This document shows positions 32,188-48,735 of a stretch of 64,000 nt of DNA, piece by piece. The translations under genes were made by a program, and so were the position numbers. The stretch's first letter is position 1; each line of letters opens with the position of its first letter. Origin of the DNA: Aureliella helgolandensis. GTDB lineage: Bacteria > Planctomycetota > Planctomycetia > Pirellulales > Pirellulaceae. The notes under the pieces are model-generated. The model was not told where the DNA came from, did not search any database, and saw only the letters and a list, made by a program, of their open reading frames with translations. The DNA lies in NCBI RefSeq assembly GCF_007752135.1, contig NZ_CP036298.1, positions 1,240,001-1,304,000 of the forward strand, in the 5' to 3' direction.

Positions 32188-33276
32188 CTACCGCTGGAAT
32201 ATCGGCAGGACGGAGCGTGGCATGTTGAGGATGAGACACGCCATGGCCGTCCCGTATTCTAGACTATTGAAGTCGAACCAGCCTCCGTCGGGATTCTGCA
32301 TACTCAGCAAACTCTTTTTGAGCTGCGCGTACCAGTCCCTCCAGGGTTCCCCACCAATGTGCCAAAAGGCCTGGGCGGAGTAGTAGTGCGAGTAGTAAAA
32401 GAAATTGTTTCGATCTCGACTGCGATTTGTCTCGGCCTGGGATTCCATGTATTCAAATGCGATATCGAGTTCATGACCGGTGTAGATACCCGCACTGTAA
32501 AGAGCCACGATGGCGGCCGCTGTCAACGGAAATCGACTCCCACCGCCCCGCGTCTGGTACATGAATCCTCCATCGGGATTTTGACTGCGGCGGACGTAAT
32601 CGACGGCGCGATCAATGACCTCTTTGGGGACGCCGAATCCAGAGTTTCGGGCTGCACGGAGCGCCATCATCTGGCAGACCGTGACCGATAAATCCGCTTC
32701 CTCGGGTTTGGGGTTGTAGCGCCAGCCCCCGAGATCATTCTGCGTGTTGACGATCAATTGGACTGCCGAGGACAATTTTCGCCGCATCTCTAAATCTGAA
32801 GAGGTGCCATACAGTTCTGCTAAGAAGAGGGTGCCGAATCCATGGTCGTACATGGGGCCATGGCTTGTGCTTTTGGCTGACAAGAAGCCACTGGCTTGTA
32901 CTTTCGACAGCACGTAGTCGCCCGTGCGGCGGAGTGCTTGGCCAGCTTCGCCTATCCCCGGACGCACGCCTCGGCTGAGCCATGCCAATCCGACCAGGGA
33001 GCAGACGCCGACCCATTCACCTTGTTCCGAGGAGAGAAAGGTTCCGTCTGGATTTTGGCGTTGTACCAACACCTCCAGTCCCCGGCGAATCGCCTTGTCC
33101 ACCGATGCATCGTAGAGTGAGTCTGTGTCGGAGCGGGCCGCAAAGTTCTCTGCAAGGCATGGCCGTCGGCTCCAGCAGCCGATGCTGAGATAGGAGGAAG
33201 CAGCCAGCGTGGTTTGCAGCAGTTGGCGTCGGGAAAGGCTGGGGGACAGCGATGCGTTGCCGCGCAATCTATTCAT
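32188..33276 (-). CDS. Secreted terpenoid-toroid (squalene-cyclase-like) repeat protein
   Basis: Start at ATG 33276 is chosen: it begins MNRLRGNASLSPSLSRRQLL, a twin-Arg-type signal, and overlaps the upstream stop by eight bases; the frame continues 125 codons upstream but that part is low-complexity and inside another gene. The mature protein has alpha-alpha toroid repeats (FLSSEQGEW, GGWRYNPKPEEAD, NPDGGFMYQ, NPDGGWFDF) typical of the prenyltransferase and squalene oxidase repeat family. The catalytic DxDD of squalene-hopene cyclases is not seen, so cyclase activity is doubtful. Proteins of this type often accompany DUF4175-like genes in planctomycetes. 362 residues. Confidence 0.8.
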   Translation of the reverse strand: MNRLRGNASLSPSLSRRQLLQTTLAASSYLSIGCWSRRPCLAENFAARSDTDSLYDASVDKAIRRGLEVLVQRQNPDGTFLSSEQGEWVGVCSLVGLAWLSRGVRPGIGEAGQALRRTGDYVLSKVQASGFLSAKSTSHGPMYDHGFGTLFLAELYGTSSDLEMRRKLSSAVQLIVNTQNDLGGWRYNPKPEEADLSVTVCQMMALRAARNSGFGVPKEVIDRAVDYVRRSQNPDGGFMYQTRGGGSRFPLTAAAIVALYSAGIYTGHELDIAFEYMESQAETNRSRDRNNFFYYSHYYSAQAFWHIGGEPWRDWYAQLKKSLLSMQNPDGGWFDFNSLEYGTAMACLILNMPRSVLPIFQR

Positions 33277-34162
33277 GAAGTAACGCTCGAAAGTAAGCTT
33301 CGATTTGTTGACGATGACTTGGCAAGAATTGTTCGACCCTGCGCGATTGCAATTGTTTGCGGACTCGCTCAGGCAATTGTCCCCACACATTCTCTTGAAG
33401 AGCCCGCGGATCGGCGAGTTGAACGTCCCCCGCTGCGGCACGCCCCGTTTCGCCCGGCCGATTTCCAACGCTTGGCTCCGTGTTTGGATCCGTACCGTCG
33501 TCCTGGTCGGCTGAGGCCGTTGAAGAATTGGACGAGGGGGATGTTTGAGGGGGGGCGGACGGGGTGGTTTGGCTTGGCTCCTGGGCTTCTCCAGCGCTGC
33601 TGGTGGACTGTTGAGATTGTTTTTGTCGCTTTTGTGCTGACTTGATTTCATCGATCAGTTCGTCCAGGCGTTGAACGATGTTCTGCTGCAGCAATTGCGT
33701 CTCGCTGGCGGCACTCCCCTGTTTCAGATACTCGGCGGCGATCAACATGCTTTGTCGAACTGCTGCCAAGGGGTTTTCCGCTTGCTCTCCCAAATCCTCA
33801 CCGTCCAGCCCCAAGTCCTCGGGGGTTATTTGAGGGACGGGCGGAGTGGCGGGGGAACTGCCGTCCAACGCGGACTCTTGAGCGGTAGAGGGTTCCGGAT
33901 CGGTCAGCAAATCAAGTAATCCGTCGAGCAACGCATCCTCCTCAATCGTAGCGGGGGTGGCTGCGTTTTTTGGGGGGGCCTGTGCTGAGGAAATTGAGGC
34001 GGGGAGGCAAAGGCAGGTAAACAATGCGAAGCAGGCTAGGGATCGGTGCTGGGGCTTCACTGCGGAGGGCCTTGGATGAATACCTAAAGGCATGGATTGC
34101 ATCCCGAAAGGAGATGGAGAAAATTGATCGCGACCTCGTCGGAGCTTCATGGCATTGAACAC
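33269..34162 (-). CDS. Secreted Ser/Gln-rich helical protein
   Basis: Unknown function, 297 residues. GTG 34162 is preceded by AGGAG seven bases upstream and starts four bases before the end of the upstream gene; ATG 34150 is an alternative. A signal segment (about 40-60, SLACFALFTCLCLPASISS) leads to a region with Asp/Glu-rich motifs (EEDALLDGLLDLL), a helix-forming middle (about 120-175) and a Ser/Gln/Pro-rich linker. It ends in a helical block (WGQLPERVRKQLQSRRVEQF) common at the C-terminus of proteins near DUF4175-like genes. Probably a periplasmic partner of the neighbour. Confidence 0.7.
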   Translation of the reverse strand: MFNAMKLRRGRDQFSPSPFGMQSMPLGIHPRPSAVKPQHRSLACFALFTCLCLPASISSAQAPPKNAATPATIEEDALLDGLLDLLTDPEPSTAQESALDGSSPATPPVPQITPEDLGLDGEDLGEQAENPLAAVRQSMLIAAEYLKQGSAASETQLLQQNIVQRLDELIDEIKSAQKRQKQSQQSTSSAGEAQEPSQTTPSAPPQTSPSSNSSTASADQDDGTDPNTEPSVGNRPGETGRAAAGDVQLADPRALQENVWGQLPERVRKQLQSRRVEQFLPSHRQQIEAYFRALLHE

Positions 34163-38454: not shown

Positions 38455-40884
38455 ATGGCAGAATGTTTCTCTAACCGAACGCGACTGAGAGTGTTTGCAA
38501 CCTTTGTGTTGTTGGCGCCCCTGATCGTCTATGCCGCAGATCTGGCAGTGAAGAGCAATTCCAACAACGTCATGGATTGGCTCCCCGAGTCCTTCCAGGA
38601 AACTCAGGATCTCAAGTGGTTTGGTGAGCATTTCGGCACTGACGCGATGCTGATGCTAAGCTGGGAGGGGTGTACGCTGGACGACCCTCGGGCACGCGCG
38701 CTGGCGGAGGCCTTGCGACGTCCCTTTATCGATGCGACCGACGAGGAGATTCAGCTCTTTAGCCGCGTCAGTTCGGGAGGAGAGATTGAGGAGCAATTGC
38801 GGGGGCCGCCTCTTGAATTGTCTGCGGGGGCAGCGCGCAAACGGTTAGAGGGTTGGCTATTGGAACCGGGGGGCCCTACAACTTGCTTGGTAGCCACGCT
38901 TGCCGACCAAGGCTGGAGCAGCCGGCATCTGCTGCGCCAGCATGTTGAGGACTGTGCTGGGCAGATTCCAGGACTCGCAGGCGTTAAAATCCATCAGGCA
39001 GGCTCGGTGCTTGATTCGGTGGAAATCGATCGTGCCAGCAATGATCAGTTACTGCCCTTGGCGTTGGTGTCCTTTGGATGCTGTTTCTTGCTGATGTGGT
39101 GGCTGCTGGGGAGTTTGAAGCTGGCGGGCATGGTGTTTGTGTGTGCCCTGTTTTGCCAGCAGCTTTCCTTAGCGATGGTCTATGTCAGTGGTACGCGGAT
39201 GGACAGCGTCCTTCTGATGATTCCAATGTTGATCTTCGTCCTCTCCATTTCCTCTGGGGTGCACATTGCCAACTACTACCGCGAATCGGTGCACGAGGCT
39301 GGGGCGCCGGGAGCGACGTTGCGAGCCATGGAGGATGCTTTGGTGCCGTTTTGGTTGGCGGCCGCGACGACTGCCATGGGGTTGCTCTCGCTGCTTGTTA
39401 GCCAGCTAGCACCCGTTCAGAAATTTGGACGATTCTCGTCCATGGCTGTGCTCTTAGCCAGCGTGGTCCTGTTCTCTCTCTTGCCCGCATTGTTTGAACA
39501 GTTTTCACCACGGATTCGCTCCTCAACGGGGAACCGGAATCGCCGAGGGCCCGATTCTGGGCGATCTTCGATTTGGCCAGCGTTCCTGGGGGGAGTTTCG
39601 CATGCGAAGTACTTGATTTTGCTGGTGAGTCTTGGCATTACGGCACACGCCGCCACGGGAGTCGAAACACTGCGCGCTGGCCTTCAGATCCGCGACATGT
39701 TTGCACCCGATGCCCGTATCCGCCAGGACTACGCTTGGTTGGAGGAGAAAATCGGTCCACTGGTGCCTATTGAATTGGTGGTGCGAATCCCCAAGGATCC
39801 GGCCGGGGAGGTGGAGCAACCGCTGCTCGAGCGTCTGCAGCTGGTTAGCCAAGTCCAGCGCGCTTGCAGGTCAACTGTGGGGATTGATGCCGTGGTGTCG
39901 GCCATCAATTTTTGCCCATCACTAAATGGCATAACAGGACAAGGCACCGCCAATCTCGTTCGCCGTGCTGTGTTCAACAAGCGATCGGAAGAGGCGATGG
40001 AGGGCTTGCGAACTTCGGGAATGCTAGCCGATACGCCCAGCGAGCAACTGTGGCGCGTGAGTGGCAGAGCCTATGCTTCCCAGGAGAATGACTACGCGGC
40101 CATTTTAGAGCAGCTACGGAGGAATGTGCAGCCACTGATCACCGAGGTGACGCAAGCCGGTTTTCCCGGACTGAGCATTCTCTACTGCGGTGGTGTTCCG
40201 CTGGTTCAAAAGGCGCAAGACCAAATGATCCGTGATTTGGGAAACAGCTTTCTGACGGCATTTTTGCTGATTGCTGTGGTCATGGCTTCCTTGATGGTCT
40301 GGATGTCACGAGCCGACTGGTGGGGGCAATCGATTCGCATCGGCCTGTTGACGGTCGTTCGCAACTTTGGTGCTGGGTTGTTGGCAATGGTTCCAAATGT
40401 TATTCCTTGTATATTGGTGTTGGGCACCATGGGGTTGCTTGGCTTGCGGATCGAGATAGGTTCGATGATGACTGCCAGTGTGGCGCTGGGAATCGCCGTC
40501 GATGATACGCTGCACTTCCTCACTTGGTTTCGCCGAGGGCTGCAGAGTGCAAAAGTTAGGAAGGGCCCTGCTGCTCGCCATCACGCGGTACTGCTAGCGC
40601 TCCAGAAATGTGGGGGCGCGATGACCCAAACCAGTATTATCTGCGGGGTTGGGCTGCTGGCCTACGCCATGAGCGACTTTGTACCGATCGCAAGATTTTC
40701 GTGGGTGATGTCCGCCATGTTAGCTTCAGCCTTGCTGGCCGATTTAATCGTTTTACCCGCTCTGCTATTAAGCCCCTTGGGGGCGTTGTTTGAGCCTGTT
40801 CAGGAAGAGCCGTTGCGGCTCGCATTGGTATCCCCCAAAGTTGACGAGACATGCCTGGAAAACTCACCTCCTTCGAAGAGCTGA
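38455..40884 (+). CDS. RND/MmpL-like membrane transporter
   Basis: Predicted exporter of lipids or lipophilic compounds, powered by proton flow. 809 residues with the RND duplication: one helix near 13-28, then a periplasmic domain (to about 200), five helices (about 200-350), a second helix and periplasmic domain (to about 590) and five helices to about 790. Charged residues typical of the proton path occur in the helix with LASDLIV-type and DDTLHFLTWF (SVALGIAVDDTLHF about 675-690) sequences. Shape and size fit the MMPL/sterol-sensing subset better than the three-part AcrB type. The next gene, an acyltransferase, starts 34 bases inside its 3' end, so the two are coupled. Confidence 0.85.
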   Translation: MAECFSNRTRLRVFATFVLLAPLIVYAADLAVKSNSNNVMDWLPESFQETQDLKWFGEHFGTDAMLMLSWEGCTLDDPRARALAEALRRPFIDATDEEIQLFSRVSSGGEIEEQLRGPPLELSAGAARKRLEGWLLEPGGPTTCLVATLADQGWSSRHLLRQHVEDCAGQIPGLAGVKIHQAGSVLDSVEIDRASNDQLLPLALVSFGCCFLLMWWLLGSLKLAGMVFVCALFCQQLSLAMVYVSGTRMDSVLLMIPMLIFVLSISSGVHIANYYRESVHEAGAPGATLRAMEDALVPFWLAAATTAMGLLSLLVSQLAPVQKFGRFSSMAVLLASVVLFSLLPALFEQFSPRIRSSTGNRNRRGPDSGRSSIWPAFLGGVSHAKYLILLVSLGITAHAATGVETLRAGLQIRDMFAPDARIRQDYAWLEEKIGPLVPIELVVRIPKDPAGEVEQPLLERLQLVSQVQRACRSTVGIDAVVSAINFCPSLNGITGQGTANLVRRAVFNKRSEEAMEGLRTSGMLADTPSEQLWRVSGRAYASQENDYAAILEQLRRNVQPLITEVTQAGFPGLSILYCGGVPLVQKAQDQMIRDLGNSFLTAFLLIAVVMASLMVWMSRADWWGQSIRIGLLTVVRNFGAGLLAMVPNVIPCILVLGTMGLLGLRIEIGSMMTASVALGIAVDDTLHFLTWFRRGLQSAKVRKGPAARHHAVLLALQKCGGAMTQTSIICGVGLLAYAMSDFVPIARFSWVMSAMLASALLADLIVLPALLLSPLGALFEPVQEEPLRLALVSPKVDETCLENSPPSKS

Positions 40885-42200
40885 TGTTGTGTCAGCACAC
40901 GACTGGTTTTCCCTGCGAGTTCTTCATTCGCCTTCGGTTTCAAGGGCACCTCTTCCCTGAGCGATTCGAGCAAGCGGTCCTAGATGCCGCCAGTCGGCAT
41001 CCCTTGCTGGCAGCCGGAATCGTCTTTCGGTCCAATCGCCCCTACTGGTCGAGCCACGCTCAACTCCGCAGTTCGGTGGTGTGGTGCGAGGGCGAGGATT
41101 CGAACGCCGCTCGTGCGATGCCAGCACTCGATATCTCGCGCCAAGGTTTTGCAATCTGGGTGCAGCGAGACCAGGGATGCTCCGACGTTTGGTTGCAGAT
41201 GCATCATGCCTGTTGTGATGGTTTGGGAGGCTACCAGTTTGTTCGCGATATCTTGCTCTTGTATGCGCATGGAGCAGCAAGCCTTGCGGACGCGACGCGG
41301 GAGGCGGTCCCCGCCCTGCCCCGGGTCGACGCGAAACTACTTTCTCGCCGCGGTGGTTTCAATATGTCGTCGTGGGAATTTCTGCGAATGTTGCCTCGGC
41401 AGTTGGTCGGAGTGTTGGGAGTCCGAGAGTATTTAAGTCGTCGTCCGCTTCCGTTGTTGCCACACCGGCCGGCAGCACTCGAATCTGTCCGCGATGTCTA
41501 CCCGACAGTCTTATCTAACCAGTTCACTCTCCCCGTTTCTCAACGTCTGGGACGGTTGGCTCATTCCGAGTCTGCAACTTCCAACGAATTGCTGTGTACT
41601 GTACTATTCGCTGCACTTGATGCTTGGCGAACGCGGCGTGGTATACAGCAGGAGCGAGAGTGGTTGCGGATGATGGTGCCGATGAACATGCGTAACCAAC
41701 GCGATGCGGCGATGCCTGCTGCGAATGTCGTCAGCGCCGTGTTCTTGGATCGAAGAGGCGTGGATATCGCGGATACAAAGGGGCTGTTGGCTAGTCTTCA
41801 TCGGCAGATGGAGACAATCAAGAATAACCGACTTGGGTGTACATTCTTGTTCTCATTGGCGGCGCGACGCTACGCGCCAGGCGGAATCCCTCAGGCTCTT
41901 CAAGGCGAACGGTGCCACGCGACCTCGGTGTTTTCCAATGTTGGCCGCGTGCTCACCGACATCGACCTCCCCGAAACGGAGGACGGGTTGCAGTGCGGGG
42001 ATGTGCTGCTCAAGAGCACGGAACTCGTTCCTCCACTCACTCCTCAAACATGCGTGGCATTCGGAGCTACGTGGTTCGCCAACCGTTTGGCAATCACGTT
42101 ACACTATGACCCCAGGCCGATTGACCGCGAGTCGGCGGAAGAGTTAATGCAGGATGTTGTGCGGCGCGTCGTTGTGGCAGCCGAACGTGGTGAGTTTTAA
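40851..42200 (+). CDS. Condensation-fold acyltransferase (PapA/WS-like)
   Basis: Predicted to transfer acyl groups from a thioester to a hydroxyl or amine. 449 residues with the HHxxxDG catalytic motif (HHACCDG, His118-Gly124; His119 is the second His) of condensation-fold enzymes, which include PapA, wax-ester synthase and NRPS condensation domains. A second family feature, the DFGxG-like region, is not clear; MVPMNMRNQRDAAMPAANVVS (about 265-285) matches the structural region of PapA-type proteins. ATG 40851 overlaps the exporter gene by 34 bases. The context with an exporter and glycosyltransferases points to a glycolipid substrate; this is inference. Confidence 0.8.
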   Translation: MPGKLTSFEELMLCQHTTGFPCEFFIRLRFQGHLFPERFEQAVLDAASRHPLLAAGIVFRSNRPYWSSHAQLRSSVVWCEGEDSNAARAMPALDISRQGFAIWVQRDQGCSDVWLQMHHACCDGLGGYQFVRDILLLYAHGAASLADATREAVPALPRVDAKLLSRRGGFNMSSWEFLRMLPRQLVGVLGVREYLSRRPLPLLPHRPAALESVRDVYPTVLSNQFTLPVSQRLGRLAHSESATSNELLCTVLFAALDAWRTRRGIQQEREWLRMMVPMNMRNQRDAAMPAANVVSAVFLDRRGVDIADTKGLLASLHRQMETIKNNRLGCTFLFSLAARRYAPGGIPQALQGERCHATSVFSNVGRVLTDIDLPETEDGLQCGDVLLKSTELVPPLTPQTCVAFGATWFANRLAITLHYDPRPIDRESAEELMQDVVRRVVVAAERGEF

Positions 42201-42233
42201 CGTTAAGATCTTCAACCTTTTTAGGGGTATGTA

Positions 42234-43502
42234 TTGCTCACGCTGGCTTACATTATATTTGGAATTCTGGTCGCCCTGATTGCACTGCAGGGGCTGCTGG
42301 TGGCTGGATTCGTTATCCGACTGCTACGCTTCCGACAACAGCTTATCTCTAACGCGGATGCACCGAAAGCTGCAGTGATTCTGTGTCTACGCGGTGGCGA
42401 TCCCTTCCTTAAGAAATGTATCCAAGGCATTCTGGAACAGGACTACCCCGAGTTTCAAATCCACCTAGTTGTCGACCATCCTAGCGATCCTGCTATGAAG
42501 ATCCTCCGAGAGCTGAACTTGGAGAGTTCGAGCGCAGTCGTGCATCAGCATGTGTTGATCAACCCACTACCAAGCTGCAGTCTGAAATGCAGCAGCGTCG
42601 TTCAGGCGATTGGGACGCTCGACGAAACGATTCAATTTGTTGCTCTCATCGACGCCGATACGGTGCCGCATGCCACCTGGCTGCGGGAGTTGGCGACGGC
42701 CCTTCAGGATGACAAGGTGGGAGCGGCCACCGGAAATCGTTGGTACATGCCAGTACGTACCTCCATGCCGGCCTTAATACGCTACTCGTGGAATGCTGCA
42801 GCAATCGTGCAAATGTACTGGTACAACATTGGGTGGGGAGGAACGCTGGCTATCAAGACTCGCGTTTTTCGAGAAACCGACATCCTCGATAAATGGAGTC
42901 ATGCATTTTGCGAGGATACGATGCTGTTCGCGCAGCTCAAAAAAGCTAGGTTGCGTTTGGCCTTTGTACCATCCTTGATGATGATCAATCGCGAAGACTG
43001 CGACCTCAAGGGCTTTTTCTTCTGGGTGCGACGCCAGTTGTTGACCGCCAGACTCTACCATCCAGCTTGGTTGGGTGTGGCCAGCCACGGTGTTGTGACT
43101 ACGCTTTTTCCGTTGTTGGCATTGGTCTGTGCGCTGGTCTCGATCCTGTCCGGAAACAAGGAAGCGGCTAGCGTGGCCGCTTGGAGCTTTGTGTTCTATC
43201 AAGTGTCCGTAACGCTCATGCTGCCTCCGATGGAGTATGCTGTGCGGCGAATCGTAAGTTCCCGTGGTGAGCCGACGGGTTGGTTAGACCCAGCTGGAGT
43301 GCTCAAGTGGATCGGAAGTGTAGCGCTGACTCAATTTGTCTATGCATTGGCTCTTCGCTCGGCTTGCACTCTGAAGCGGGTAGAGTGGCGTGGGATCGAA
43401 TATCGCATTGGCGGTGCCTGGGAGATTGCCATGGAGAAATACGCTCCCTATCACTCCTCCGTGAAATCCCCAGAGCAAGAGGACTCACCCAACTCTCTCT
43501 GA
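42234..43502 (+). CDS. GT2/GT21-like membrane glycosyltransferase
   Basis: Inverting glycosyltransferase related to ceramide glucosyltransferase and hopanoid HpnI. 422 residues from TTG 42234 with AGGGG seven bases upstream; no in-frame ATG nearby. Residues about 2-30 form a membrane helix, the catalytic domain shows RGGDP (53-57), VVDHPSDPA (79-87), DAD (140-142), TGNRWY (about 165-170) and FCEDTML (catalytic Asp), and the C-terminus has three or four helices (about 285-390). The usual (Q/R)xxRW motif appears as RQLLT, so Arg and Trp are lost. Downstream neighbour on the opposite strand is a paralog. Acceptor and donor sugar are unknown. Confidence 0.8.
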   Translation: MLTLAYIIFGILVALIALQGLLVAGFVIRLLRFRQQLISNADAPKAAVILCLRGGDPFLKKCIQGILEQDYPEFQIHLVVDHPSDPAMKILRELNLESSSAVVHQHVLINPLPSCSLKCSSVVQAIGTLDETIQFVALIDADTVPHATWLRELATALQDDKVGAATGNRWYMPVRTSMPALIRYSWNAAAIVQMYWYNIGWGGTLAIKTRVFRETDILDKWSHAFCEDTMLFAQLKKARLRLAFVPSLMMINREDCDLKGFFFWVRRQLLTARLYHPAWLGVASHGVVTTLFPLLALVCALVSILSGNKEAASVAAWSFVFYQVSVTLMLPPMEYAVRRIVSSRGEPTGWLDPAGVLKWIGSVALTQFVYALALRSACTLKRVEWRGIEYRIGGAWEIAMEKYAPYHSSVKSPEQEDSPNSL

Positions 43503-43525
43503 TGTTGCACTCGCCTCGTTTTGTT

Positions 43526-44785
43526 TTAGCTGGGCGGAGATTGTTGATTCGAAACCTCAGCCCATGGTTGGTAGTTCACCATGCGGATGCGTGACGGCGG
43601 AAGGATTTGATAACTGATTCCGCGCCAACGCACTCGTCGAGCGCAGGAGGCGCTAAGCACTGCGAGCAAGAGAAAGGTTAAGAATATCGGCCACATCAGG
43701 AGGCTGGTTGTTCGCTGCCGCCAGCCGATTGGGGGAAACGATTCCCCACCACGCTCGACAACGCGTGCACTCAGCCGGCGGTGCAGCAGTTCGAGAATCC
43801 CTTGCGCAAATCCAATTTGCGCCAACAAGGCGGCTCCGTCGAGCAGGGCGATCGGTGTGTTGCCATGGTAGGCAGCGCAAACCATGACCCAGAACGTAGC
43901 GACCAACAGGGCATAGGATCCCAGTACGCCTAGTGTGATGTGGGGCCAGTTGGGGTAATAGAGTCGCGTCCAGATAAGCTGCCTTCGCACAAACTGAAAG
44001 CAGCCTGCTACCGAGCACTCGGTTGAGTTCAGGAGGAATACATCGGGATTGCACTGGATTTCCAATCCTTGCGTCGTTGCCGATTCGCGGATTGCAGATT
44101 CCTCCGTGCAGGTGTCGCGCATGCGTTGGTCGAAAAAGGGGGTGTCAAAGACGGCGCGGTGCATCGCCAGTGAGCCGCCCCACACAATCTTCAGGAAATA
44201 CATTGGGATCACGCAGTATGCGTTGTACTGGCATCTGAGGATTCCTCCCCAGGTTGATTGCAGCGGTGCGTACCAGCGATTTCCCGTGACGATCCCAGCG
44301 TCGCCCTCGGCCAGCGGGGCAGCGAGGTCGCGCAGCCAGTTGGCGTGCACCATCGTATCGGCATCGACGAGGCAAGCGATCTCAATCTCGGAATTCAGCT
44401 TGGCAACGCACTGCCGAATGGCACTGGTCTTGAGATAGGCATGCGGGGAGGGGGATTCGAGAAACTCCACATGGACATTGTCCAGTGCATTCTCGTCCCT
44501 CCACGCTTGCACGGCCGCGCGGGCTGGATCGGAAGGGTGGTCGACGATGATGTGGAGTGAGTACCGCGGATAGTTTTGCTGTGCCAAACGCGTCAAGCAC
44601 TCTCGCAATTCCGTATCGCATCCACGCACGCTGAGCACAATGGCCGCTTGGGGCAGGCGGCGGTCTTCGATCACGGGAGCTCTGTAGGATGCAATTGCGC
44701 GCAAGAACCGGGAGGTGCCCCAAAGCTGGGTTAAAATGCTTAGCCCAACTAGCATTGCGAGCCCCAGCGATAATCCGGTTAGCAT
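43526..44785 (-). CDS. GT2/GT21-like membrane glycosyltransferase, paralog
   Basis: 419 residues from ATG 44785, eight bases after the SDR stop; the frame runs further upstream but only inside that gene. N-terminal helix (about 1-25), catalytic motifs RGCDT, VDHPSDPA, DADTMVHANW, TGNRWY, WGGSLA, and C-terminal helices (about 280-400). It shares many blocks with the glycosyltransferase on the plus strand that it faces tail to tail, 23 bases apart, so the two arose by duplication. The (Q/R)xxRW motif reads RQLIW (Arg to Ile). In ceramide glucosyltransferases that Arg is important, so activity or acceptor may differ. Confidence 0.8.
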   Translation of the reverse strand: MLTGLSLGLAMLVGLSILTQLWGTSRFLRAIASYRAPVIEDRRLPQAAIVLSVRGCDTELRECLTRLAQQNYPRYSLHIIVDHPSDPARAAVQAWRDENALDNVHVEFLESPSPHAYLKTSAIRQCVAKLNSEIEIACLVDADTMVHANWLRDLAAPLAEGDAGIVTGNRWYAPLQSTWGGILRCQYNAYCVIPMYFLKIVWGGSLAMHRAVFDTPFFDQRMRDTCTEESAIRESATTQGLEIQCNPDVFLLNSTECSVAGCFQFVRRQLIWTRLYYPNWPHITLGVLGSYALLVATFWVMVCAAYHGNTPIALLDGAALLAQIGFAQGILELLHRRLSARVVERGGESFPPIGWRQRTTSLLMWPIFLTFLLLAVLSASCARRVRWRGISYQILPPSRIRMVNYQPWAEVSNQQSPPS

Positions 44786-44793
44786 TTGCGGTC

Positions 44794-46314
44794 CTATCGC
44801 AGTGCGCCGCATCTGCTGGTGGAATTCGCGGCCGATCGAAAACTGCCTTCTGGCTTTAGTCGAATTTGCAGCGCATCGGCGATCTGAATTTCCAGTTCCT
44901 CGCGTTGGTTTTCGGAGGAGCACTGAAGTACCAAGTGTGGCTGCTCCGATTCCAATGCTGCCGATGTTTGGAGCGATTCGAGAGTCTTGGTATCGGTCTC
45001 GATGCTAGCCTGAGGGCACTGGTAGGAACCTCGCTCGATTGCTACCAATTGCCCCTGTTGGATTGATAATTTCCAATCTCCCCCACCTGGCCCGAGAATG
45101 AACAGGTTGACTCTGAGAGGATGGTACTCAAGCGTTTCGGAAGCTGGAGAAAGTAGTGCTTCCAATTGTTGTTGGATGGAGTTGTACGGCTTGGTTGCGG
45201 GAGGGCGACGCTTACCCCAGCGGTCGGCCTCACCAAATTTCAAGTAGCGGTGCAACATGGCTTCGTCGATGGGCGGGCACGGAATATGACCTGCATGCTT
45301 GCGAAGATTCGTTAGATCGAAACTGGGATCGCATTCTTCATACTCTCTGTACATCCCAATGTTTTCGTGGGCGTTGCGGTCAATTTCGCTGATCGGGCCG
45401 GTCGCTTGCGCCGATGGTCCTTCGAAAATCACGCCGCGCGAGTTGAAGTAGGTATAACCCGCTTCAATCATCTCACGTGGAGTCAACGGAATTTCGGGAG
45501 CTAGATGATACGTTAAACCGTGCGATTCCGGCGTTGTCACCAGATGGGTCATGACTTCAGATACCCAATCAACGGGTATCACATTCCGCTTTTCATCGCC
45601 TGTTAGTTCGGTCCGAACCGGTGTGTCGCGAACTCCATCGGGACCGGGAGGAGTGTTGCGAACCAAAATTGACATGAGCTTGAGGTAGAGATAGAGCCCG
45701 TGATAGGTGCTCGTATATCCGCTGACCGAATCCCCCGAGATTACTGCGGGGCGATAGACGGTAAGCGAATCGAAGCAGGTGGCCTGACGCACTAGCTTCT
45801 CGGCTTCACACTTACTCTTCTCGTAGTCATTGCGAAATTCTTGCCCGACGTCCAATTCGCATTCCTTGACCACGCCGGGACGCAGCCCTGCCACATAGGC
45901 GGTAGAAACATAGTGGAATTGGTTGATGCCAACCTGCTCACACACATCGAGCATGTTCTTCACGCCTCCAATGTTGGAACGGTAGGGCTCGCCGGAGGCT
46001 ACTTCGTGGAATTCAAGTGAGGCCGCGCTATGTAGAGCGGTGTTGCAATTCTCACTTAGCCAATCCCGATCTCGCTCACTGAGCCCCAGGTAGGGGGCGC
46101 AGATGTCTCCCTCGAGCACGACGGGGCGAGGTAGCACTTGGTCCAGTTCCGTTTCCCAAGCCTGTAATATGGCCTCGGTACGATCTTGGCAACTCTCACG
46201 TTGGCTGGGGCGGACCAATAATGCCAAGCGACACTGCTTCAAAAGGAGGTCCCGTAGAAGGTATCTCCCTAGCAAGCCCGTACCACCAGTCAGTAAAATA
46301 TGATTCTGCAACAA
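44794..46314 (-). CDS. Fatty-acyl/thioester reductase-like SDR with SCP2-like tail
   Basis: Predicted NAD(P)H-dependent reductase of the NAD_binding_4 (male-sterility) type, which reduces acyl thioesters to aldehyde or alcohol. 506 residues from TTG 46314, with GGAG six bases upstream. The nucleotide motif TGGTGLLGRYLLR (9-21) and the catalytic Tyr/Lys in the YEKSKCEAEK segment (about 163-172) with VYRPAVISG are present. From about 397 to 495 the tail (RVNLFILGPGGGDWKLSI; GQLVAIERG; QASIETDTKTL) resembles an SCP2 lipid-binding domain. It is first in a minus-strand pair with a glycosyltransferase. Sits 398 bases from a divergent gene. Confidence 0.75.
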   Translation of the reverse strand: MLQNHILLTGGTGLLGRYLLRDLLLKQCRLALLVRPSQRESCQDRTEAILQAWETELDQVLPRPVVLEGDICAPYLGLSERDRDWLSENCNTALHSAASLEFHEVASGEPYRSNIGGVKNMLDVCEQVGINQFHYVSTAYVAGLRPGVVKECELDVGQEFRNDYEKSKCEAEKLVRQATCFDSLTVYRPAVISGDSVSGYTSTYHGLYLYLKLMSILVRNTPPGPDGVRDTPVRTELTGDEKRNVIPVDWVSEVMTHLVTTPESHGLTYHLAPEIPLTPREMIEAGYTYFNSRGVIFEGPSAQATGPISEIDRNAHENIGMYREYEECDPSFDLTNLRKHAGHIPCPPIDEAMLHRYLKFGEADRWGKRRPPATKPYNSIQQQLEALLSPASETLEYHPLRVNLFILGPGGGDWKLSIQQGQLVAIERGSYQCPQASIETDTKTLESLQTSAALESEQPHLVLQCSSENQREELEIQIADALQIRLKPEGSFRSAANSTSRCGALR

Positions 46315-46711: not shown

Positions 46712-47893
46712 GTGCGTTTGGGATTCAATGCATTTGTGAAGAAGCTCTTTTCCGGAAGTAGGGGTTCTTCGGAGAGTGAGGATTCTGCGCAGTTAGAGGT
46801 GCTGCCGCAATCGGAAATCGCCAGCTTGTTGCCCGTTCCGCAATTTGAATTGGCAACCCACAACCTTGCTCGGCTCTTACGCGAGCGATTGGAAACACGC
46901 GGTCCGGCCCATGTAAAGCTGGCAATTGTTGGTCCTGCAGGGAGCTACGCTCAGGAGATCGTCGCAAGATGGGCAGAGCAAGAAGGGCACCAAGTGGTCC
47001 AACCTCCGGAGGTTGAGCGTCTTCTACGGCCTGCCGGAGATAACGACTCGCTGGAACTTGAGAACCCGTCGATGCGATTTTGGGAGTCGATGCCTCAGGT
47101 GTCGAGCGGCGTATTGGTCATCCCTCACCTGGAGCGATTTTTTCTACGACATCATGCTGGCCTGGATCTGTTGAGGCAGTTTACGCAGTGGGTCTGGCAA
47201 GCACCATGTCGCGTGGTGGTGGGGTGTGATAGTTGGGCCTGGGCGTACTTGACTCAGGCGATTCAGATTCATTCCGTCTTTTCTCCGCCAATCGCGATGC
47301 GGGCTTTTGATCCTCACGCCCTGATGGAATGGTTTCAGTTGATTGAATCGCGAGAGCGTCCATTCCTCTACCGGGATAGCGAGGAGGAGCTGTTTCCTCC
47401 CGTCGAAACTGAAGCAGCGGGGGATTCCAATGGCAAAAGATCGGCGGGGCGTCTCACGATCGAACGCAAGACTGAGGAATTGCTAGAGAAGATCGCAGTG
47501 ATCGCGCGGGGGAACCCAGGGGTCGCATGTGCTATTTGGGGGCGGTTGTTATGTACCAAGGCGCAGGAGGCGGAGTGTGAGCAGAGCGCTCGCCACCCAA
47601 TGCCCGTCCGAGTGCGGGCCCTAGCGGATCTGCAACGCCCTATTCTGCCTCCCAAGTCATCAACGCGGGAAGCTATTGTGCTACACACCTTGCTGCTTCA
47701 CCGAGGGCTCCAGCCCGATATCATTTTGCAGCTTGTACCCTTTCCGCCTTCGAAGGCGATCGAGACCCTGGCCTCCTTGGAAGCCGCCCAGCTGATTGAG
47801 TTGCAAGATGGGTTTTGGCGGGTCACCCTGTTGGCCTACCCAGCCGTGCGCTCAGCACTTAAAGCGGATGGCTTGCTCGTCGACGATTTTTAG
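46712..47893 (+). CDS. Degenerate ATPase-like protein with C-terminal winged helix
   Basis: 393 residues, probably from GTG 46712 (GTG 46736 is an alternative). A Ser-rich leader is followed by an alpha/beta region: the strand-loop AIVGPAGSYAQ (71-81) sits where a Walker A loop would be but lacks Gly-Lys-Ser/Thr, and GVLVIPHLERFFLR (about 133-146) resembles a Walker B strand without its acid. RVVVGCDSWAW (about 168-178) is a sensor-like strand. The last 70 residues form a helix-turn-helix/winged helix (LLHRGLQPDIILQLVPFPPSKAIETLASLEAAQLI). It directly precedes an MscS gene by 11 bases. A regulator of the channel is one inference. Confidence 0.65.
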   Translation: MRLGFNAFVKKLFSGSRGSSESEDSAQLEVLPQSEIASLLPVPQFELATHNLARLLRERLETRGPAHVKLAIVGPAGSYAQEIVARWAEQEGHQVVQPPEVERLLRPAGDNDSLELENPSMRFWESMPQVSSGVLVIPHLERFFLRHHAGLDLLRQFTQWVWQAPCRVVVGCDSWAWAYLTQAIQIHSVFSPPIAMRAFDPHALMEWFQLIESRERPFLYRDSEEELFPPVETEAAGDSNGKRSAGRLTIERKTEELLEKIAVIARGNPGVACAIWGRLLCTKAQEAECEQSARHPMPVRVRALADLQRPILPPKSSTREAIVLHTLLLHRGLQPDIILQLVPFPPSKAIETLASLEAAQLIELQDGFWRVTLLAYPAVRSALKADGLLVDDF

Positions 47894-47904
47894 GAAGCCA
47901 GATT

Positions 47905-48735
47905 GTGCCTGAACTACCCAACTCTCCGGAGCAAGTTAGCTCCGTTTTCCGCCAGTTCGATGACGTCGATTTCCTATTGATCCTGGGTATAGCCGTAGCC
48001 AGTTATCTGGCGATCGTAACGTCCAGATGGTGCGCCACGTGGCTTACCGGTAGGCTTCCAACGAGGTTCCGTTTCTACATCCTTCCCTGGATCCCACTGT
48101 TCCGAATCCTCTTCGTGCTGACGGCGATCTCGCAGATTGTGCCATTGGTAATCGAGCCCACCGCATCCAACCTGTTTGCGGTTTTCGGTGCGGCTAGCGT
48201 GGCGATTGGTTTTGCCTTCAAAGATTATGTGAGCAGTCTGATCGCAGGTATCGTGGTCCTGTTCGAGCGACCATACCGCGTCGGGGACTGGGTGAGTATC
48301 GAAGGGCACTATGGAGAGGTGCGTAGCCTAGGCATGAGGACTGTAAACCTGATGACTCCCGACGACACGATGGTAACCATTCCGCATAACAGCATGTGGA
48401 GTTCTGCAATTTTGAACTCCAATGGGGGCAGGCGTGATATGCAGTGTGCCCCCAAGTTCTACGTGTCGCCAACCCACGATGGTGATCACGTCAGGCAAAA
48501 GCTGCTGGATGTCGCATTGACGAGCACCTATCTTCACATCGACCATGTACCAGTAGTGGTGGCCAAGCAACTTCCCTGGGCGACTCAATACACGGTCCGC
48601 GCCTATCCCTTCGAATGCCGCGAGCAATTCGCCTTTATCACCGACTTGACCTTGCGAGGAAACGCAGCTCTTCGCCAGATAGGGATCAAGCTCCTCGTAG
48701 CACCACCTTCGATCACTCAATCCGCCGAACTCTAG
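47905..48735 (+). CDS. Small-conductance mechanosensitive channel (MscS family)
   Basis: Ion channel that opens under membrane tension to release osmolytes. 276 residues from GTG 47905 (AGGA nine bases upstream). Three hydrophobic helices (about 20-40, 58-78 and 84-105) precede the pore-lining helix ASVAIGFAFKDYVSSLIAG (about 95-113) and the beta domain with ERPYRVGDWVSIEG (about 119-132), GRRTVNLMTPDDTMVTIPHNSMW-like sequence and a C-terminal alpha/beta domain. Family length is typical. Cotranscribed with the ATPase-like gene. Confidence 0.92.
   Translation: MPELPNSPEQVSSVFRQFDDVDFLLILGIAVASYLAIVTSRWCATWLTGRLPTRFRFYILPWIPLFRILFVLTAISQIVPLVIEPTASNLFAVFGAASVAIGFAFKDYVSSLIAGIVVLFERPYRVGDWVSIEGHYGEVRSLGMRTVNLMTPDDTMVTIPHNSMWSSAILNSNGGRRDMQCAPKFYVSPTHDGDHVRQKLLDVALTSTYLHIDHVPVVVAKQLPWATQYTVRAYPFECREQFAFITDLTLRGNAALRQIGIKLLVAPPSITQSAEL

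Follow-up and report, generated by a model that had tools for sequence, protein, structure and literature searches.

A five-gene locus was analysed in a 64,000-nucleotide stretch of the genome of Aureliella helgolandensis (contig NZ_CP036298.1, positions 1,240,001 to 1,304,000; hereafter the window). It is proposed that these genes encode a pathway for an acylated glycolipid, a glycoside of a long-chain alcohol, which would be assembled at the inner membrane and carried out by a pump. A probability of roughly 55% is given to this reading. The predicted products are a pump of the resistance-nodulation-division (RND) type, an acyltransferase, two glycosyltransferases (GTa and GTb) and a short-chain dehydrogenase/reductase (SDR) with a C-terminal tail (Table 1). 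The evidence in hand consists of the genes, their predicted folds, motifs and overlaps, a partly conserved neighbourhood, and a version in relatives built on the reductase (R) domain of a polyketide synthase (PKS).

The source genome is a single contig of 8,439,957 bases (8.44 Mb). Searched at E<=0.001, it gave one match for the acyltransferase, one for the SDR and two for the GTa-type glycosyltransferases (the second being GTb), all of them at the locus. As these families were matched nowhere else in the genome, their grouping is more than chance. The pump, unlike the other members, has further relatives there (11 matching pieces, itself counted).

Table 1. Genes and protein features of the locus, in window coordinates
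Feature	Position	Strand	Length	Basis or remark
RND exporter, MMPL/HAE3-type	38455..40884	+	809 aa	PF03176, GIAVDDTLH motif
Condensation-fold acyltransferase, PapA/WS-DGAT-like	40851..42200	+	449 aa	Model fold, HHxxxDG
HHACCDG motif of the acyltransferase (residues 118-124)	41202..41222	+		Aligned rows
GTa, membrane GT2/GT21 HpnI-like glycosyltransferase	42234..43502	+		Pfam, NCBIfam, invariant residues
GTb, second HpnI-like glycosyltransferase	43526..44923	-		Pfam, NCBIfam; likelier start 44785
SDR, thioester-reductase (R-domain) type with C-terminal tail	44794..46314	-	506 aa	T138, Y164, K168
SCP2-like C-terminal domain of the SDR (about residues 398-482)	44869..45123	-		Model, tail alignment

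All five open reading frames were found where the original prediction, made from the letters alone, had placed them, and the 34 nt shared by the frames of the exporter and the HHACCDG acyltransferase were confirmed. The two glycosyltransferase genes do lie tail to tail, with 3' ends 23 nt apart, and both reach Pfam GT21; the start of GTb had to be corrected. Its 465-residue frame runs 130 nt into the SDR gene, and an in-frame ATG at 44785, just past the SDR stop, is the likelier start.

The reductase and its tail

The SDR scored 155.9 bits against NAD_binding_4 (PF07993), above the cut-off; with this domain searched through the genome, the locus gave 158.2 bits and scores elsewhere did not exceed 49.6 bits. 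It stayed below the thioester reductase model TIGR01746 (122.1 of the 213.35 bits needed). Its best matches, both in sequence and in fold, were R domains of PKS and non-ribosomal peptide synthetases (NRPS) such as MxaA, which ranked first in a Foldseek search (E 5.1e-22) with a model of predicted local distance difference test (pLDDT) score 86.6. The Ser-Thr, Tyr and Lys positions of MxaA are retained in the alignment (T138, Y164 and K168 in the SDR). The model also matched carboxylic acid reductases and rice DPW, a fatty acyl reductase. No transmembrane-like segment was detected. The window SDR differs from the terminal R domains, MxaA being the closest solved one, in that it is free-standing and followed by the tail.

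The tail was modelled as four strands, a helix, a strand and a helix, confidently except around residues 451-460, an order resembling that of SCP2. The window tail gave no match to Pfam SCP2 (PF02036) at E<=1. SCP2 was the commonest Pfam match among 47 aligned tails, that of the window included (5/47 at E<=1, best 0.0022). A PDB profile search with the 47 tails returned two weak matches, neither of them SCP2, and when the tails were compared by profile to four free-standing SCP2-type proteins the similarity was weak (E 0.035, probability 1.5%). In four loci from distant members of the phylum (L225-L228), a shorter SDR adjoins a separate protein some 120 residues long, and a pump of the RND kind lies in the same stretch; this free-standing protein in L227 (9055-9417) is a clear SCP2 (53.8 bits, cut-off 21.3). 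The model and the alignments thus suggest an SDR of the PKS/NRPS R-domain type with an SCP2-like tail. The reductase-like SDR of the original prediction is borne out by NAD_binding_4; for the SCP2-like tail the support is indirect, coming from the modelled order, from five of the 47 tails and from the free SCP2 protein.

The acyltransferase and the exporter

The acyltransferase did not reach the cut-off in any of the Pfam and NCBIfam families that it matched: WS_DGAT (WS_DGAT_cat) at 14.1 of 23.6 bits, Condensation at 12.2 of 30.6, PapA5 at 38.2 of 396 and acyl_WS_DGAT at 38.2 of 309.95. A PDB search with the single sequence gave no match. Its model (pLDDT 83.5) has the fold of condensation domains and CoA-dependent acyltransferases; condensation domains were found throughout the 50 PDB matches listed, with PapA5 (1q9j) at rank 25 (E 3.1e-18). 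When a family profile of 20 rows was used instead, 8s6l and PapA5 were within the top three PDB sequences, and PapA5 (1.8e-11) was closer than a WSD (1.1e-5). Residues H119 and D123 of the HHxxxDG motif are invariant across the 20 aligned rows, the window included, and H118, H119 and D123 across nine rows. The predicted condensation-fold acyltransferase was in this way upheld by fold and conserved residues, though its family scores are under cut-off. The protein lacks transmembrane-like segments.

The exporter passed the Pfam MMPL family (PF03176; 51.4 bits, cut-off 20.5), in line with the RND/MmpL-like exporter of the original prediction. It did not reach the MMPL transporter subfamily TIGR00833 (39.6 of 874.7 bits needed) or the NCBIfam HpnN model (52.1 of 751.85). 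PDB matches were weak, and those at E<=0.01 were only HpnN-type structures. D683, D684 and H687 of the GIAVDDTLH motif, which is characteristic of the proton pathway of RND pumps, are kept in at least 95% of 19 rows, the window included.

The glycosyltransferases

Both glycosyltransferases were above the Pfam cut-offs of GT2-type families, GT21 among them, and show transmembrane-like segments. Their best NCBIfam match was HpnI, below the cut-off (65.4 and 71.4 of 310 bits). In GTa, residues D81, D140, D142, R267 and Q268 are invariant in 21 rows and a WRG motif is nearly so. In a tree that included the L131 and L149/L070 rows (a putative second glycosyltransferase of L153, whose frame contained a stop, was left out and the L130 duplicate removed), GTa falls in a 20-row clade (98/97) represented in most modules found. 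GTb groups with the second glycosyltransferase of L122 and L125 (100/100), and a different group holds that of L131, L146, L147, L151 and L090 (100/99). The recurring GTa clade and the origin of the second enzymes in two or more groups suggest that the first sugar step is constant and the second varies.

These matches raise the question of a hopanoid or sphingolipid that is glycosylated and exported by relatives of HpnI and HpnN. Such a system likewise combines a membrane glycosyltransferase of the GT2 type with an RND pump, HpnI is the best NCBIfam match of both window enzymes, HpnN is among the matches of the pump, and all PDB matches of the pump at E<=0.01 are of the HpnN type. The HpnI and HpnN scores are far under their cut-offs, however, no canonical squalene-hopene cyclase was found in the genome, and the best cyclase candidate reached 79 of 431.1 bits with the squalene-hopene cyclase model and is located elsewhere. 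The hopanoid link, to which matches of HpnI, HpnN and HpnA models had pointed, was set aside on these low scores and the divergent cyclase, and this explanation, for which no search for sphingolipid genes was made, is regarded as highly improbable.

Gene order in relatives

Loci were collected by a scan with the SDR alignment, and the best 80 of 197 confirmed loci were used. Neighbouring genes were assigned by profile search, and many loci are cut by contig ends. Some contigs occur under two labels (L131/L066, L149/L070, L128/L064 and L121/L061). A GTa-type glycosyltransferase accompanies the SDR in 42 of the 80 loci, a pump in 16, an acyltransferase in nine and two glycosyltransferases in eight; all three partner families are present in five. 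For the 40 loci with at least 8 kb on each side, the counts are 25 (glycosyltransferase), 10 (pump), four (acyltransferase) and 13 (none).

Pump, acyltransferase, SDR and two glycosyltransferases occur together in three other planctomycete genomes (L131/L066, L147 and L149/L070). L149/L070 holds them in one co-directional run (SDR, pump, acyltransferase, GTa, glycosyltransferase), and the order in L147 is glycosyltransferase, SDR, pump, acyltransferase, GTa. The second glycosyltransferase of L131 and L147 is from another subgroup than GTb. Four families with a single glycosyltransferase were found in L170, L182 and L065. In Bythopirellula polymerisocia (L125), pump, SDR, GTb and GTa are present and no acyltransferase was detected within the 21 kb fetched. 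Pump and acyltransferase frames overlap by 34 nt in the window and by 23 nt in L147, whereas the overlap is 4 nt in both L070 and L170; the acyltransferase and GTa frames share 4 nt in L070 and L182. In the acyltransferase tree, the window protein lies within a clade of nine module members (97/89).

A simpler pathway would be of the wax-ester kind, in which the SDR makes a fatty alcohol, the acyltransferase esterifies it directly (as with fatty acyl reductase and WS/DGAT) and the glycosyltransferases act elsewhere. The SDR is reductase-like, and the acyltransferase scored the same with the PapA5 and acyl_WS_DGAT models. Yet the commonest partner of the SDR is a GTa-type glycosyltransferase and not the acyltransferase, the acyltransferase family profile is nearer to PapA5 than to a WSD, and its gene overlaps that of an exporter; this pathway is considered distinctly unlikely.

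Across 119 genomes of the family, counted with PKS-type relatives included and with many assemblies in many contigs, the acyltransferase was matched in 72 and the SDR in 69 (both 60, acyltransferase only 12, SDR only 9, neither 38). For the 60 genomes with both, the two genes are no more than 12 kb apart in 27 and no more than 5 kb apart in 19. A phylum-wide sample of 294 genomes gave SDR relatives at E<=1e-40 in 47, so that the reductase is wider in distribution than the full module. The closest relative, G016, belongs to another genus (acyltransferase 45% and SDR 60% identical) and carries the genes on different contigs.

Genes for deoxysugars or for pyruvyl or methyl transferases were found on the flanks of L064, L066, L090, L122, L124 and L182. 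They include sugar dehydratases and epimerases, a nucleotidyltransferase, an NDP-hexose 2,3-dehydratase, a DegT aminotransferase, an EryCIII-like glycosyltransferase, a pyruvyl transferase, and C- and other methyltransferases. Sugar and methyltransferase genes of this sort usually accompany glycolipids or glycosides, and their presence in several relatives favours a glycolipid.

In L101-L104, the SDR profile also finds a match in a PKS frame some 2,600-3,000 residues long; the R-domain form is here fused to the PKS. The L103 PKS has the Pfam domains KS, AT, DH, MT, ER, KR and ACP and a C-terminal NAD_binding_4 reductase. A GTa relative from a separate four-row clade lies nearby, and the acyltransferases of these loci belong to a 15-row clade (96/96) in which the nine-member clade is nested. 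With four PKS-R loci beside the acyltransferase clade of the module, the reductase front end appears to be either free or PKS-fused.

It was also considered that the glycosyltransferases and the acyltransferase might decorate a surface polysaccharide or modify lipid A or lipopolysaccharide, with the SDR supplying an aldehyde or alcohol. An envelope glycan would suit the GT2-type enzymes, and also the genes for a pyruvyl transferase and for deoxysugars that lie close to some relatives. The five genes include no polymerase, flippase or ligase, though, the PKS-R versions of the set point to lipid chains, and known MmpL pumps carry lipids (PMC4183827). Decoration of a glycan is therefore unlikely.

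Several PKS-type clusters (L093, L095-L098) hold a phosphopantetheinyl transferase, a Rieske oxygenase (undetected in L096), SDRs, a class III aminotransferase, an AMP-ligase and a related acyltransferase; Pfam was run on L097 alone and the rest was assigned by profile. They probably represent another lipid pathway that uses the same reductase and acyltransferase families. Next to the SDR, 25 of the 80 loci, for instance L164, L173 and L185, have a gene of the 3-keto-disaccharide hydrolase family (Pfam on the L080 member), mostly divergent and mostly with a glycosyltransferase on the other side.

An aminolipid, for which the SDR would stop at the aldehyde and an aminotransferase would make an amine to be glycosylated and acylated, has in its favour the class III aminotransferases that accompany a related SDR and acyltransferase in L093 and L095-L099; L225, L227 and L228 also have one next to SDR and pump. 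By profile, no such aminotransferase was found in L070, L131, L147 or the module of the window, and an aminolipid is considered very unlikely.

Comparison with known systems

Mycobacterial PapA/MmpL pairs, e.g. PapA3/MmpL10 of the acyltrehaloses, likewise unite an HHxxxDG acyltransferase and an MMPL-type RND pump in a glycolipid context. For PapA3/MmpL10, PMC4183827 describes acylation at the cytosolic face of the membrane and an export that requires the pump. In contrast to these systems, the five window genes include no PKS or fatty acyl-AMP ligase (FAAL), a reductase with an SCP2-like tail and two HpnI-like glycosyltransferases are added, and the proteins are below the PapA5 and MMPL-transporter-subfamily cut-offs.

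The thioester reductase of the cyanobacterial heterocyst glycolipid (hgl) pathway releases an alcohol. Reductase, glycosyltransferase and transporter are common to that pathway and the window set, whereas an HglE-type PKS and an ABC exporter are found in hgl, an RND pump and a genome devoid of modular PKS in the window, and the acyltransferase and the HpnI-type glycosyltransferases are additions of the window set. The hgl components given in PMC11804610 are a PKS for the chain, the thioester reductase, a headgroup glycosyltransferase and a transporter. An hglE-KS-type cluster is mentioned for one Pirellulaceae strain in PMC13190842.

Proposed pathway and evidence weighed

A ketoacyl-synthase search of the genome gave seven matches in open frames of 415-519 residues and no modular PKS, and a table in PMC7716919 lists 0 type I PKS for the strain. 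Because of this lack of a modular PKS, the acyl chain probably comes from ordinary fatty-acid synthesis. In a first step, as the fold and catalytic residues suggest, the SDR would use NAD(P)H to reduce an acyl thioester (on ACP or CoA), giving a long-chain alcohol, the chain being held by the SCP2-like tail. Membrane-bound GTa would then attach the first sugar, either to the alcohol or to a chain hydroxyl, and GTb may add a second. The soluble acyltransferase would esterify a hydroxyl of the glycolipid with another acyl chain, and the RND/MMPL pump would finally shift the finished lipid from the inner membrane towards the outer membrane. Of the two products offered by the original prediction, the glycosylated long-chain alcohol fits the R-domain-like reductase; nothing found favours a ceramide, sphingolipid genes not having been searched for.

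Several observations weigh against this pathway. The below-cut-off scores of the acyltransferase are one weak point. AzeD, a close PDB relative of that protein, carries a dehydratase title, and 8s6l is named phthiocerol dimycocerosyl transferase in one list and 'AzeD dehydratase' in another; with these conflicting names, the fold is no proof of acyl transfer. GTb and SDR are on the strand opposite to the pump, acyltransferase and GTa, so there is no single operon here, and no sugar-nucleotide gene was found within the window module. The product itself is a candidate, and the SDR may end at the aldehyde or at the alcohol. The flanks of L125, L147 and L170 yielded no sugar or methyltransferase genes and hold NADH dehydrogenase, porin and pantoate enzyme genes of no evident link.

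The gene set is moreover patchy, with single members or the whole set frequently absent. Within the DNA fetched, in part cut short by contig ends, no partner was found in 33 of the 80 SDR loci (nor in 13 of the 40 with wide flanks), which indicates that the SDR also works without the set, and an acyltransferase is near the SDR in just nine. Three other members of the genus were sampled, two of them lacking an SDR match. G023 has neither an acyltransferase nor an SDR match, G082 has a 26% acyltransferase match with an internal stop and no SDR match, and G108 has weak acyltransferase pieces and a 37% SDR match beside PKS-type neighbours. The patchiness in the genus does not alter the probability given to the acylated glycolipid, because an uneven distribution is plausible for a tailoring pathway. 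The analogous planctomycete module of the original prediction, for which conserved synteny had been put forward as a check, thus stands in part: five-gene and four-family sets were found in relatives, several of which also have sugar or methyltransferase genes on their flanks, but single members are frequently lacking.

Neighbouring and further genes

A scan for promoters and terminators gave no excess over shuffled sequences. Two genes of the opposite strand lie upstream of the SDR: one at 46712-47893, whose product has a weak, below-cut-off match to sigma-54 activators, and directly after it an MscS-type channel gene at 47905-48735. A protein encoded at 32188-33651 has squalene-cyclase-like (alpha-alpha toroid) matches barely above cut-off. 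Elsewhere in the genome (L233, 1362-3554), a squalene-cyclase-like protein of 730 residues is above the Pfam cut-offs and far below the squalene-hopene cyclase model.

Implications

No account of this gene set in planctomycetes was found in a literature search conducted mainly at title and abstract level and in few subscription journals. Planctomycetes and MmpL are both mentioned in a paper about sterol-binding domains of bacteria (PMC10942540), and planctomycetes are absent from the text of PMC13291983. To our knowledge, little is known of the outer-membrane lipids of these bacteria. As a wider and tentative proposal, held with somewhat less than even confidence, Planctomycetes, chiefly Pirellulales, may possess a modular glycolipid pathway with GTa, acyltransferase and MMPL pump as its core, fed either by an SCP2-tailed reductase or by a reductase-ending PKS. 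The second glycosyltransferase and the deoxysugar genes would be swapped, and the products, acylated alkyl glycosides of the outer membrane, would constitute a new family. If the proposed pathway is correct, a named gene set would be available for a surface glycolipid family in an apparently cultured type strain. The combination of acyltransferase and MMPL pump, best known from mycobacteria, would be present in a distant phylum, and a natural swap of fatty-acid and polyketide front ends would have taken place on one pathway.

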